Notes under the pieces: generated by a model | Databases searched by the model: none | What the model saw: only the letters and a program-made list of their open reading frames with translations | Told to the model about the DNA's origin: nothing | Assembly: GCA_902800025.1 (NCBI GenBank) | Contig: CADCDA010000001.1 | Location: 1-64,000, forward strand | Reading direction: 5' to 3' | DNA: 64,000 nt | From: an uncultured Erysipelotrichaceae bacterium | Lineage (GTDB): Bacteria; Bacillota_I; Bacilli_A; RFN20; CAG-826 | Translations under genes and position numbers: made by a program | Shown: piece after piece, positions 1,978-9,376 of the stretch | How the letters are laid out: each line of letters starts with the position of its first letter | How positions within the stretch are numbered: position 1 is the first letter of the stretch

Positions 1978-2184
1978 TTATCATAAACCAAATTGAATTC
2001 GAGAAAATTCTCCTAATCACCATTATCTCCATTATCTCGGAAAAACATGTAGAGAAGATATTCGAATAATACCATATTTAAATCTATTTGTTGTTTAAAA
2101 TTTTTACCTTTTGTCATCGCTAGAAAGAACTTCTTATTTCATTTACTAAAAATGGGGCTGATAGCTCTGCGATATACTTTCATG

Positions 2185-3219
2185 TTAAATGCCAATCACT
2201 TCTTTTATATAATCTAGAGTCTGTTCTTCTTTTTTAACATAGAAAATTAATAATGCATAAGATGCTTCGCTAAAACATATCTTATCTTCTCTTTTTTCTA
2301 GAATTTGCATTTTTTCTAATTTCTCATAATCTTTTAAAAACTCTTTTTCTTCTATATTAAAATCTTTTAATTTCTTCAAAAAAGTTTCATACGACCGATC
2401 GTATGTATCAACAAGAGCGAATAGATATGATTTTGTATTTCTTGGTAAAGATTCGGTAATTGATATTATTGGCATATCTTTATAGTAAGCACATTTATGC
2501 TGCAGCAAAGACATTGTTAGAGTATTGCAATATGTGATAAGCATCTCATAGAAAAGAAAACATTCAAAAAATCCATGCTGACGATAATAATTAATCAAAC
2601 CTTTTATTGTTTGAAATTGATATTTTTTAAAAAACAATTCCTTGCCTATTAAGGCGTATAAATAAGGAAATTCATCAAATAGTGATTTGAATCCTTTATC
2701 TTTTTTAGCAAGATTATCTAAATATAAAATAGCAAACCTTAAAGCGACACTAGAATTTTCTGGGCAATTTTTAACAAAATCTCTTAATTCATTTATTTTA
2801 TTTTGCCCAATATAATAAGCCACTAGATGGAATCTTTCTCCTAAATTATCACCCTGATTCAATTCCATCATTTCCTTAATTATTTGATAAGCCTCTTCGA
2901 CTTTTTTATTTCTTTCATATCTTTCTAATAAGTCCATCAAAATAAACATATATGGTCTAGTGTCGTGGTCATAATATAGGTCTTCGATATCATTACAATT
3001 ATCCCTGATAATTTGCCAAGCATCTTCTTTTAATTTTAAAAGTGCGTCAAGTTGTTGCTTTTCTGGAAGCAAATCCACTAAACGATGCATAGAATCAATA
3101 TCAGTTGGATTTATTTCAAGAATTTCATTTAGAAAACGCCTTTTTTCACTTTTAGTTGTGGCTGAATCATATTTATCATATAGATTTTCTAATTTTTCTA
3201 GTCTTGCATCATTAAACAT
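2185..3219 (-). CDS. TPR-like repeat protein, unknown function
   Basis: About 344 residues of almost purely helical, charged sequence with no signal peptide or TM segment. Helix pairs such as EILEINPTDIDSMHRLVDLL, YMFILMDLLERYERNKKVEEA and MMELNQGDNLGERFHLVAYY resemble degenerate TPR units, including the N..DN.G.R.....Y pattern of ST7-like TPR proteins. Start choice: ATG 3219 has a GAGG eight bases upstream. An in-frame ATG at 3303 would add 28 residues but has no visible ribosome site. The function is probably protein-protein interaction in the cytoplasm; no partner is suggested by neighbours. Two terminator-like hairpins lie on its 5' side. Confidence 0.75.
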   Translation of the reverse strand: MFNDARLEKLENLYDKYDSATTKSEKRRFLNEILEINPTDIDSMHRLVDLLPEKQQLDALLKLKEDAWQIIRDNCNDIEDLYYDHDTRPYMFILMDLLERYERNKKVEEAYQIIKEMMELNQGDNLGERFHLVAYYIGQNKINELRDFVKNCPENSSVALRFAILYLDNLAKKDKGFKSLFDEFPYLYALIGKELFFKKYQFQTIKGLINYYRQHGFFECFLFYEMLITYCNTLTMSLLQHKCAYYKDMPIISITESLPRNTKSYLFALVDTYDRSYETFLKKLKDFNIEEKEFLKDYEKLEKMQILEKREDKICFSEASYALLIFYVKKEEQTLDYIKEVIGI

Positions 3220-3429
3220 GTCAAATACCTCTTTATTAAATTCTATAAATTTTGGTGGTACTAAACCACAAAAATACTTATAGGAATAAAAATCCCTAAC
3301 CATTAGCGGATTCGTAGTTGCATTGCTGGTTACGCAGCGCGAAATTTTAAAAGGTATTTTTGATGAGTTTTTTACATGAAAAAATAAGCCTCAAAATTTT
3401 ATCGTCATTAAGTTTTACCCATTAATGAT

Positions 3430-3460
3430 AAAAAAGACATCCCGATACCATCAGAATGTC
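3430..3460 (-). terminator. minus-strand rho-independent terminator
   Basis: On the minus strand GACAT...TGAT-GGT-ATCG...ATGTC is followed by six T (arms 3456-3460 and 3436-3440). It lies downstream of a second terminator, so it may end a small transcript between 3461 and 3562. Confidence 0.65.
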
Positions 3461-3562
3461 GCATTTAGTTCTTTGGGATTGTACTACGTTTTTAAGACAA
3501 ATTGAAAGCTCTATTTTTTGTTGAAACTTGAACTTTTCGTTGAAATATTTGATTCAACCGAT

Positions 3563-3593
3563 TTAAAAACCGACTAAGCATTAGCCTAATCGG
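3563..3593 (-). terminator. terminator of the 3670-4950 lipoprotein gene
   Basis: Arms CCGATTAGGC (3593-3584) and GCTTAGTCGG (3579-3570) with loop TAAT and a T-run on the minus strand, about 77 nt after the lipoprotein stop codon. Confidence 0.7.
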
Positions 3594-3669
3594 TCTTAGT
3601 TTTTGACATTTTTTATTAGAGTGAACTAATATAATGCGTGGCAATTCAGCGCGATTGCCTTTATTAGCT

Positions 3670-4950
3670 TTATTGCTTAGAAAGTTCGATTGTTCCAAAC
3701 ATCAAAACATCTTTTTCTGCATTGTATGTAAAGGAGATTTTGTCACCAACTTCATATGGAGAAGGATATTCACCAAAGCTTTCAACTCCAGTTACAATAA
3801 ATGAAAGCTCTTTTGTTTCATCATCATAAGAAAAGCTACTAAAATAATATTCGCAATCAATATCATAATTAGAAAAATTATTAGCGCCAAAGCTAAGAGT
3901 ATAGTTAAAGCTATCATCACGCCAGTACGTTCCATAAAAATAGGTCTTATCGGTTCCTAAAGCTGGAATGATTACAGATTCTGCATCTATTTCGTTTTTG
4001 CCTTCTTCATCAGAAAAATATTTTCCGCAGACATCGCAAGTCCAATATTCAATGTTGCCGTCTTCAAGGCGAGTTGCCTCTTTTCCTTCGTGATGAGTTA
4101 ATGTGTGATGAGCTGGAATGCGAACGTCTTCTTGATTAATAGGGTGTGTGCAAGCTTCATCTGAGAAATATTGGAAGCATTCTGTGCATACCCAATATTC
4201 GATGTTGCCAGGTACATAACAAGTTGCGGCCTTTGCACTGTTATGAGTTAAAGTATGAGCGTGAGCTGGAATGATCCAACCATCTTTTTTGAGTTCGTCT
4301 TTTCCTTCCTCATCGGAGAAGAATTTGCCACATCTTTCGCAGCTCCAATAAGCACAATTACCGGCCTCGGTGCATGTTTCGGCATGAGATTCATGAGCGG
4401 TTAAATCATGGCCGGTAGCAGGCAAAGTCACTTCATGTGATTGGGCTTCAAAAGCTTCGTTTTCAAAAGCAACATCATAAACGCCCGTTCCTTCTTCATC
4501 GCAGGTGGGAGAAAGGGTTACTGTATAAGCCGAAGAGGCAGTTTCACTTTCGATGTGATTTGAATTGTTTTTACACACTCTAGTTGCAGTACATGAAGAA
4601 TAATCATCAGCCCATGTATAAGTGATTGCACCCCATTCGTGACCAGTTTGCTCTAATGTAATGTCGAAGTGGGTAGTTCCAAAGACCTCGTTATCAAATG
4701 TAACAGTATATCTACCTGATCCATTTTCTTCACATTTAGCTTCTTTAGTGACAGCGTAAACGGAATTTTTTGTTTCTGTTTCTTTATGACTTTCATCACC
4801 TTTACAGACTCTTTCAGCGGTACAGCTTGTGTGGTCAGTAGACCATGTGTAAATCACTTCTCCCCATTCATGAGTGTGTTTACTTCCACAACCCGCTAAA
4901 AGACCAATAGCCATAAGAGCAGACGTCATTAAGACTAATTTCTTTTTCAT
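3670..4950 (-). CDS. repeat lipoprotein with H..H/CxxC modules
   Basis: A 426-residue exported lipoprotein: signal peptide MKKKLVLMTSALMAIGLLAGC with lipobox LAGC (Cys21). Two approximately 80-residue N-terminal repeats (HEWGE/A.TYTW..D..SCTA.RVCK, then EE.G.G.Y.V.F.NE.F) are followed by three approximately 50-residue repeats with the pattern LT.H..K.AT....GN.EYW.C..C.KYFSDE. The CxxC and His pairs suggest metal or disulfide stabilisation. Such modules occur in surface proteins of gut Bacillota. A 90-residue beta-rich C-terminus has no recognised motif. It is divergent from the broken tetR gene, whose operator-like palindrome lies between them. AAGGAAA precedes the start. Function unknown; binding or adhesion is a guess. 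Confidence 0.85.
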   Translation of the reverse strand: MKKKLVLMTSALMAIGLLAGCGSKHTHEWGEVIYTWSTDHTSCTAERVCKGDESHKETETKNSVYAVTKEAKCEENGSGRYTVTFDNEVFGTTHFDITLEQTGHEWGAITYTWADDYSSCTATRVCKNNSNHIESETASSAYTVTLSPTCDEEGTGVYDVAFENEAFEAQSHEVTLPATGHDLTAHESHAETCTEAGNCAYWSCERCGKFFSDEEGKDELKKDGWIIPAHAHTLTHNSAKAATCYVPGNIEYWVCTECFQYFSDEACTHPINQEDVRIPAHHTLTHHEGKEATRLEDGNIEYWTCDVCGKYFSDEEGKNEIDAESVIIPALGTDKTYFYGTYWRDDSFNYTLSFGANNFSNYDIDCEYYFSSFSYDDETKELSFIVTGVESFGEYPSPYEVGDKISFTYNAEKDVLMFGTIELSKQ

Positions 4951-5041
4951 TTACAAATTTCCTTTCTTGTTATGTATATGATTACACATAAAAGAAATAA
5001 TATATTTACTTTCTATTTTCAAGCAAAACAAGCCTTAACTA

Positions 5042-5062
5042 TACTTTCGAATATTCAAAGTA
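5042..5062. promoter_or_regulatory. TetR-type operator candidate
   Basis: TACTTT and AAAGTA form 6-bp inverted arms around a 9-bp centre containing GAATATT. The site lies between the divergent lipoprotein (start 4950) and tetR (start 5108) and overlaps the likely promoter area (GATATATAATAAG near 5070). Confidence 0.5.
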
Positions 5063-5107
5063 AAGTTATTGATATATAATAAGTAAAAAATAAGGACAAA
5101 TATAGAT

Positions 5108-5730
5108 ATGAGAGACACTGATAAAACTAAAAAAGAATTTGAGAAATCATTATTCAAACTATTATCGAAAAAGAACTATCATGATATCACTGTTAATGAG
5201 ATATGTTCTTTAGCTAATAAAACAAAGATGACCTTCTATCATTACTACTATTATCGAAAAAGAACTATCATGATATCACTGTTAATGAGATATGTTCTTT
5301 AGCTAATAAAACAAAGATGACCTTCTATCATTACTTTAAGGATAAAGATAATTTATTAGCGTTAGCTTCAATTAATTTAATCAACGAAGAATATAACGAA
5401 GCATACAGAAAAATCTTAAGAAAAGAAACCGATCAGGAAGAAATTGAATACCAATCGATATTGGTTACCTATGATTGGGTTGCAAAGCATTATAAACAAA
5501 TCCAAAACCTCATCCATAAAGGTGATACTTTTCCGATGGAGATATTTAAAAATGCTTTATCTAATAACTATAGTAAATATATAACTGAGACGATTAAATC
5601 TGTTGATTATGATGTTCCTAGTGATTATTTATCGATATTTTTCTTTGAAGGATTATATGGTTCGTGCCTATATTACGCTGATTGCCGTTTCTGGGCCAAG
5701 CTTATCATATCCGCCACAAAGGAAAACTAA
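5108..5730 (+). pseudogene. TetR/AcrR-family regulator broken by an 89-bp tandem duplication
   Basis: Frame 1 (5108-5302) encodes a TetR-type HTH (DITVNEICSLANKTKMTFYHY) and then runs into out-of-frame sequence. The same HTH end (MTFYHYFKDKDNL) restarts at 5317 and continues through a typical helical ligand-binding half to 5730. Removing one copy of the duplication restores a single 177-residue protein, a normal length for the family. The two copies are identical, so the lesion is recent or reversible. As it stands, translation from 5108 yields a 64-residue truncated DNA-binding piece. The likely target is its own gene and the divergent lipoprotein. The ribosome site AAGGA lies 11 nt before ATG 5108. 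Confidence 0.9.
5158..5335 (+). repeat. perfect 89-bp tandem duplication inside tetR
   Basis: The block beginning ACTATTATCGAAAAAGAA at 5158 is repeated without mismatch from 5247 (offset 89). The repeat ends with ATCATTACT. Because 89 is not a multiple of three, the duplication frameshifts the gene. Confidence 0.95.
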
Positions 5731-6953: not shown

Positions 6954-8279
6954 TTAATCAAACAAATTTGAGAAATCTTGAGCAGATACCACTTTATACA
7001 TCTTGCTATTGTATGAGAATCTATTTGATGCAAAAACCTCAATATCAGCAATATAACCAGTTATTTCGTAAGGGGCTTCAAGTGTTTCATCATAAGTTTC
7101 TTCATTTGGCCATTCAACAAATTCTAAATTATATAAGTAAGAAATAGGATATCTAGATAGAGTAGACTTTTTAACCGCTTCGATATTGTTTCCATATTGA
7201 TTAATCATATAACGATGCTCTGTATATTGAAGGGGCTCAGCAAATACTTTTTCTATCAAATATCTCGTGCCAGACACAGCTGTATTGAGACTTTTTCCTG
7301 TGATTGAAATACTTTTGCTTGTTATGTTGTTAAAGTTGTATTCTAAAACGCTAGTGCCTGCACCAGAAACTTGTAAATCTTTATTTGTTTTATAAATGTT
7401 GCTTTCTAAGAAATGATATGCAGTATCAATATCAGTTTCTCCACTAGAATAATAAATGTTTCTAAAATAATCAGGTCCTAAACTACTATTTGAATATTCA
7501 TATCTTAAGCTTTGAATATTTGATTTAGTAACTTCATTTATCCAAGGGCAAACGTTTTTTAAAGTAGATTTGTAATTATTCCAAGTACTATTGCTATTAT
7601 CAATAATGAAATTTAGATGATTTATATACGAATTGAAAGAATAGTTAAGGGTGTATGTGCCTTCTTTTTTAAATTCAATTCGATATCTTGGTTCTTCCCC
7701 ATATTGATTTCCGACATAATATGAATTTGAGAAAGAATGATCATGGTTAAAAATAGCGTGATCGCCAGTAAAAACAACATCTTTGCTTCCGCGATGAAGC
7801 GGGTAAATACCAATGTCAAAATCCAAGAAAGTATTTGCGTAATAATATATTTCTTTTGTGCCTGGGTCCTTATAAGTGCTGACTATCTCAGTCGAATTGG
7901 TTATTGCGACATAGGCATCAACTCCAGTGATAATTGGTTCCCCGCCACCCGGATTATTATCGCTTTTATTAAGACTAATTATTCCGAGAGTTATTCCAGT
8001 AGCGGTTCCACCTATAAGTAGAACTGCCAAAGCAATAATTCCAGCTTTTATTAAAAGCTTATTCTTTTTATTCTTTTTTATAATGTTATCGCTTCTAAGC
8101 TCATCAACTTCCACACCAAAATAAACCGCTAATGCCTTTAGGGTCTCTTCGCTTGGGTTGCCGTTACCGTTTTCATATTTTGCAATTGCAGATCTTGAAA
8201 TATGAACGGCTTCAGCTAATGCTTCTTGTGATAATCCATTTTCGTTTCTTAACTTTTTTAGTTTGTCTTTAAAATCCAT
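6954..8279 (-). CDS. membrane-anchored XRE-family regulator with extracytoplasmic domain
   Basis: A 441-residue protein. Residues 1-62 are a classic HTH_3 DNA-binding domain (LRNENGLSQEALAEAVHISR, SAIAKYENGNGNPSEETLKAL). A lysine-rich linker and one TM helix (about 73-98) follow. Then comes a long, Ser/Asn/Tyr-rich exported part (about 105-441) with no recognised fold. The topology places DNA binding inside and a possible sensor outside, like other one-component membrane-bound regulators. Three TTGTTACTT repeats in the 74-bp gap to the divergent transposase gene may be its operators. The signal sensed is unknown. Confidence 0.85.
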   Translation of the reverse strand: MDFKDKLKKLRNENGLSQEALAEAVHISRSAIAKYENGNGNPSEETLKALAVYFGVEVDELRSDNIIKKNKKNKLLIKAGIIALAVLLIGGTATGITLGIISLNKSDNNPGGGEPIITGVDAYVAITNSTEIVSTYKDPGTKEIYYYANTFLDFDIGIYPLHRGSKDVVFTGDHAIFNHDHSFSNSYYVGNQYGEEPRYRIEFKKEGTYTLNYSFNSYINHLNFIIDNSNSTWNNYKSTLKNVCPWINEVTKSNIQSLRYEYSNSSLGPDYFRNIYYSSGETDIDTAYHFLESNIYKTNKDLQVSGAGTSVLEYNFNNITSKSISITGKSLNTAVSGTRYLIEKVFAEPLQYTEHRYMINQYGNNIEAVKKSTLSRYPISYLYNLEFVEWPNEETYDETLEAPYEITGYIADIEVFASNRFSYNSKMYKVVSAQDFSNLFD

Positions 8280-8321: not shown

Positions 8322-8362
8322 TTGTTACTTATTGTTACTTTTATTGATTATCGTTGTTACTT
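8322..8362. repeat. three TTGTTACTT direct repeats in divergent promoter
   Basis: Identical 9-mers occur at 8322-8330, 8332-8340 and 8354-8362, with steps of 10 and 22 bp, so all lie on roughly one face of the helix. They lie between the XRE gene start (8279) and the transposase start (8384). They could be operators for the XRE protein or subterminal repeats of the insertion element. Confidence 0.6.
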
Positions 8363-8383
8363 TGTTTTAAGGTGGAAGAAAAA

Positions 8384-9376
8384 ATGATTAGAAAGTCACA
8401 ATTAACAGAAGAAAACAAGAAATTAAAAAGAAAACTATTTATTTGGGAAAACATAAATATAAGTATCAATTCCTCAGTTAAAGAAAAAGAAATCGCTGCG
8501 GAAAAGTTTCTAAATGAACATCCTGATTACAATCTTTATGAAGTAAGTGACACTATTAAGATTAATAAGGGCACTTTATATCATCACTTATATACAAGAG
8601 CAAAGAAACCTTGGTATGTTCAACGTGTTGAAGATTTGACTCAAGAAGTGATCAATGTGTTTGAAGAATCCAACCGCGTATACGGAGCTAACAAGATTGT
8701 TTTAGCGTTAAAGAAAAAGGGAATTATTGCAGATAAAAAAACAGTCCTTAAAATAATGAGAACTAATAATTTAGTTAAAGAAAATGTTATTAAAAGAAAA
8801 ACGCCAAAAGTCGATAAAGAAAAAAGAAATTATTACCGAAATCTATTAAAACAACAGTTTAATGCAGACGCTCCAAACAAAGTTTGGACAAGCGATTTAT
8901 TAGAATTCAAAATAAGAGGAGTCTCTTTTTATTTATGTGCAATTATGGACCTCTTTTCAAGAATGATAGTCGCATGGAGGATATCATCTAATCGAAACGG
9001 CAGTTTGGTGATTTTGACATTCAAAGACGCATTTGAAAAACGAAATGAACCACTAGATTTAATATTTCACACGGACCAAGGATCAGAATTTAAAACAAAT
9101 GAATTTATGGAAATGTTAGAAGTGTTAGGCGTTAAGCAGTCATTCTCTTATAAAGGAGTACCAAATGATAACGCCCCCATTGAAGGCTTCTTTTCTAGAC
9201 TAAGAAGTGAGGAACTCAATAAGCATATTGAGCACTATGAAAATTCAAGAATAGCAAAAGAATATTTAGAAAGGTATTTTAATTTTTATAATTTTGGAAG
9301 GGTTCACACTTATAATGGTGGCTTAAGCCCATCAGAAAAAGAAGATGAATGGTATAAAAATAACGGCCATTTTTGA
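8384..9376 (+). CDS. IS3-family transposase (OrfB type) without OrfA
   Basis: 330 residues from ATG 8384, which has GGTGG nearby upstream. The N-terminal third is an HTH_21-like helical region (NRVYGANKIVLALKKKG). The catalytic rve core has the three acidic positions in WTSDLLEF, FHTDQGSEF and the IEGFFSRLRSEEL glutamate, followed by a typical NFYNFGRVHTYNGGLSPSE end. No OrfA or frameshift window precedes it; the upstream region instead holds the XRE promoter. It is a solo OrfB, either a remnant or a minimal derivative. No clear terminal inverted repeats were found. A terminator overlaps its stop codon, and an initiator tRNA follows on the other strand. Confidence 0.9.
   Translation: MIRKSQLTEENKKLKRKLFIWENINISINSSVKEKEIAAEKFLNEHPDYNLYEVSDTIKINKGTLYHHLYTRAKKPWYVQRVEDLTQEVINVFEESNRVYGANKIVLALKKKGIIADKKTVLKIMRTNNLVKENVIKRKTPKVDKEKRNYYRNLLKQQFNADAPNKVWTSDLLEFKIRGVSFYLCAIMDLFSRMIVAWRISSNRNGSLVILTFKDAFEKRNEPLDLIFHTDQGSEFKTNEFMEMLEVLGVKQSFSYKGVPNDNAPIEGFFSRLRSEELNKHIEHYENSRIAKEYLERYFNFYNFGRVHTYNGGLSPSEKEDEWYKNNGHF

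Follow-up and report, generated by a model that had tools for sequence, protein, structure and literature searches.

Probable recent loss of a putative TetR-family repressor from a shared surface-protein module through an 89-bp tandem duplication and a 54-bp deletion

Spontaneous tandem duplications within a reading frame inactivate the pneumococcal genes cap3A, cap8E and tts (Waite 2001, 2003, as described in PMC4243769 and PMC4022640). As far as these two accounts go, the duplications in the capsule genes are reversible and switch the capsule. In a different setting, E. coli plasmids, direct repeats of a size similar to the one described below are deleted readily and independently of RecA (PMC7063769). 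The mutation that we describe here is thus of a known kind, seen anew in a regulator family about which little is known; it affects a tetR-like gene of an uncultured gut lineage. The gene lies in a 64-kb stretch of DNA, referred to as the window.

We found that the gene contains two adjoining 89-bp copies on the plus strand, at 5158..5246 and 5247..5335, which match at 89 of 89 positions. The array is exactly 2.0 units long, and the junction between the copies reads CATTACT|ACTATTATCG. The duplicated stretch corresponds to codons 17-47, which include the helix-turn-helix (HTH) codons, and since 89 = 3 × 29 + 2, the duplication shifts the reading frame. The original prediction had described identical 89-bp copies that span the HTH and shift the frame, and this was confirmed. 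The list of open reading frames gives a 5′ fragment of 64 aa (5108..5302, plus strand), consisting of the HTH and an out-of-frame tail, and a 3′ fragment of 137 aa (5317..5730, plus strand), which begins with an internal ATG of copy 2, at 5317, and by homology represents the ligand/dimer domain without the HTH. The 89-bp pair is the only exact repeat of at least 30 bp in the window and cannot have arisen by chance. Furthermore, the copy sequence is identical over all 89 bp to the single copy in an intact relative from a different genus (L023). The base adjoining the end of copy 2, at 5336 on the plus strand, carries an A-to-T change (Y47F) that is private with respect to close relatives, and the array contains no additional homologous bases. 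Judged by its sequence, the duplication junction is apparently blunt, or else the copies share no more than one base there. Classic microhomology slippage was considered and rejected, as the ancestral ACTAT pair predicts a period of 86 bp, against the 89 bp seen. The exact duplication junction had no matches in viral contigs, and a search of a plasmid collection also gave none.

The intact relatives of this gene encode proteins of about 195 aa, and all 23 of those in alignment A2 matched PF00440 (TetR_N) at E <= 0.01, with L023 scoring 30.1 bits against a cut-off of 24. The AlphaFold2 model of L023 (pLDDT 87) has nine helices in a TetR fold, and its best PDB matches are TetR-type regulators; the fold evidence comes from this intact protein, the window copy itself being broken. 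All scores against the NCBIfam equivalogs were far under the cut-offs, placing the family near no named equivalog. The relatives are public metagenome-assembled genomes labelled Erysipelotrichaceae, Bacillales or Bacilli, compared at one genome per species. Many are of ruminant origin, as indicated by rumen or reticulum record titles or by RUG names, and several are placed in the same genus as the window genome. The duplicated segment is present once in 29 of 29 other full-length relatives, as well as in an intact paralogue on contig C9 of the same genome, and the 89-bp duplication was not found in any relative compared. The full-length relatives in the genus or family are intact except for those in RUG13318 (L035) and RUG11432 (L034).

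Removal of one copy was predicted to restore a 177-residue regulator, and a frame of 177 aa does open. However, this falls short of the family length of about 195 aa owing to a second lesion that the original prediction had missed, an in-frame deletion of 54 bp at 5681..5682 (plus strand), which is seen in the window gene and in none of the relatives. The deletion removes family residues 163-180, including positions that are invariant or nearly so in the alignment of relatives. In the AlphaFold2 model of a relative these residues run from the end of helix 8 to the middle of helix 9, a region that in TetR proteins is usually part of the dimer interface. Because these conserved residues are gone, the single-copy form is probably not a working regulator, judging from the alignment and the model. 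The deletion would persist after loss of a copy, so that the frame would reopen without the normal gene being regained.

To date the break, we compared the window gene with its relatives outside the two lesions. Omega was 0.08-0.16, the same level as between intact relatives, where it averaged 0.11, and there were three private substitutions, one synonymous and two that change the protein (N3D and the above Y47F). The substitution analysis showed no point-mutation decay of the window gene. Because the rest of the gene is under normal purifying constraint, has only three private substitutions and has single-copy relatives, a recent break is well supported by these comparisons, in agreement with the recent loss of function that had been proposed.

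Upstream of the gene we found a palindrome, TACTTTCGAATATTCAAAGTA (5042..5062, without strand), of the form TACTTT-N9-AAAGTA. It lies 64-72 bp upstream of tetR and is exact in 28 of 31 relatives. In two others it has a single-base difference, and in the last it is interrupted by the end of a contig but complete on the neighbouring contig of the same genome. The window genome has four such sites, located upstream of the window tetR, of the C9 tetR and of two secreted-protein genes on contig C10. A reversed control pattern occurred twice in the same genome, as opposed to four times for the palindrome; the count alone is weak and it is the positions that carry weight. The palindrome is probably an operator common to tetR and to the divergent gene for a lipoprotein or surface protein (3670..4950, minus strand). 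This gene is the probable target of the regulator. At related loci the DNA for the signal peptide and that of the intergenic region are kept, and what differs is the remainder of the surface protein. The likeliest role of the regulator would be that of a local repressor of surface-protein genes. At the C9 paralogue the operator arms are the same as at the window tetR, and this paralogue may partly compensate for the loss.

Several observations concern the surroundings of the gene. Positions 2153-5019 are 97.5% identical to RUG266 (L029), which belongs to a different genus, whereas identity within tetR is about 89%, a pattern of a mosaic, horizontally shared surface-protein module. A recombination junction exactly at the duplication, which this drop in identity had suggested, was rejected, since the position-wise comparison with L029 places the change at about 5000-5100, before the array. 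On contig C10 (G000:C10:49785-50953; L184, L186), one secreted-protein gene behind the same palindrome is apparently frameshifted, and its tandem neighbour is intact. About 2.6 kb past tetR, at 8354-9376, lies a gene for a transposase-like protein with an integrase core domain (rve) and an HTH; another gene, at 6954-8279 on the minus strand, encodes a protein in which a Cro/C1-type HTH precedes a probable membrane segment and then a long C-terminal part.

Taking together the duplication, the frameshift and the deletion that we observed, the single-copy relatives and the conserved palindrome, we consider it probable that a putative local repressor has recently been lost from a horizontally shared module through the duplication and the 54-bp deletion. 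The intact TetR-family protein would repress both itself and the divergent lipoprotein gene through the palindrome at 5042-5062. The blunt duplication in the HTH-coding part splits the gene into a fragment with the HTH and a domain fragment without it, and the separate in-frame deletion removes the stretch from the end of helix 8 to midway through helix 9. The predicted consequence is derepression of the lipoprotein gene, possibly with partial cover from the intact C9 paralogue.

The same gene family is broken in other genomes. In RUG13318 (L035/L084) we found a different perfect tandem duplication, of 37 bp, which lies elsewhere in the gene and also shifts the frame (L035:65-686, CADAIJ010000001.1), and in RUG11432 (L034/L008) a tetR relative carries a 1-bp deletion near codon 20 (L034:5001-5584, CACXNV010000019.1). 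We scanned another 300 kb of the window genome, and then an additional 437 kb made up of 37 kb from the window genome and 400 kb from four relatives, and detected no perfect tandem duplication with a period of at least 10 bp. The 89-bp duplication is therefore unique across 364 kb of the window genome, of which the sampled stretches cover about a quarter, and the roughly 1.08 Mb sampled, of which tetR copies make up about 1.7%, contains no perfect duplications other than those of 89 and 37 bp. Only the 37-bp duplication counts as an independent event, the 89-bp one being the starting observation. These comparisons suggest that this regulator may be lost repeatedly, and the recurrence is suggestive, but no proof, of selection for its loss.

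The original prediction had also raised a reversible ON/OFF switch by recombination between the copies. In such a switch some cells would regain the frame, by recombination or by slippage, and surface-protein expression would vary from cell to cell. This is possible in that the repeat is perfect and tandem, and instability is expected of tandem repeats of 89 bp. Its probable target, a surface-protein gene, the second duplication in RUG13318 and the pneumococcal and plasmid precedents above also speak for it. However, the 54-bp lesion survives the loss of a copy, so excision yields no 195-aa family protein, which weakens the switch reading, and no second state was seen. Nor do the two duplications agree in position or length (89 versus 37 bp), which argues against a conserved switch element or hotspot, and the higher share of broken copies in the close subfamily (3 of 15, versus 0 of 16 in the distant one) was not significant (p = 0.10). 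We therefore regard a switch as unlikely. It is decidedly unlikely that the duplication is instead a short-read assembly artefact of a multi-copy, strain-variable gene family. The window genome is a draft of 26 contigs, the tetR family is multi-copy, with relatives' contigs breaking inside it, and an array without extra homologous bases, followed by a base that differs from close relatives, resembles a graph branch; a popped bubble, a minority allele or a mixture with single-copy molecules is possible. However, in 11 pairs of contig ends the shared or overlapping sequence is exactly 99 bp long. This is consistent with a de Bruijn assembly using an overlap of this length, and it excludes an untrimmed contig overlap as the source of an 89-bp unit. 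Furthermore, all 99-mers over the array are unique, as is every word across it at k >= 90, and therefore the contig path requires the junction to be supported. The 300 kb more of the same assembly, with no other perfect tandem duplication, also argues against an artefact.

The preferred reading, recent loss of the regulator, draws attention to a mobile surface-protein module that has a TetR regulator of its own and a putative operator that can be recognised. If the recurrence is true, it would suggest either that the regulator is selected against or that a slow switch operates through duplication. We consider it very unlikely that module regulators in rumen Erysipelotrichaceae-like bacteria are repeatedly silenced by short perfect tandem duplications, some of which revert, as a contingency system that governs surface-protein expression at the level of the regulator. 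Compared with known systems, the locus resembles TetR regulators with a divergent target and an autoregulatory operator in its TetR_N domain, its TetR fold and the palindrome in the divergent intergenic region, but its probable target is a surface lipoprotein rather than an efflux pump or an enzyme, and it has no close named equivalog. It resembles pneumococcal cap3A, cap8E and tts in that a tandem duplication within the reading frame inactivates the gene, whereas the pneumococcal duplications are reversible and affect capsule genes; here the gene encodes a regulator, reversion was not seen and a second deletion is present.
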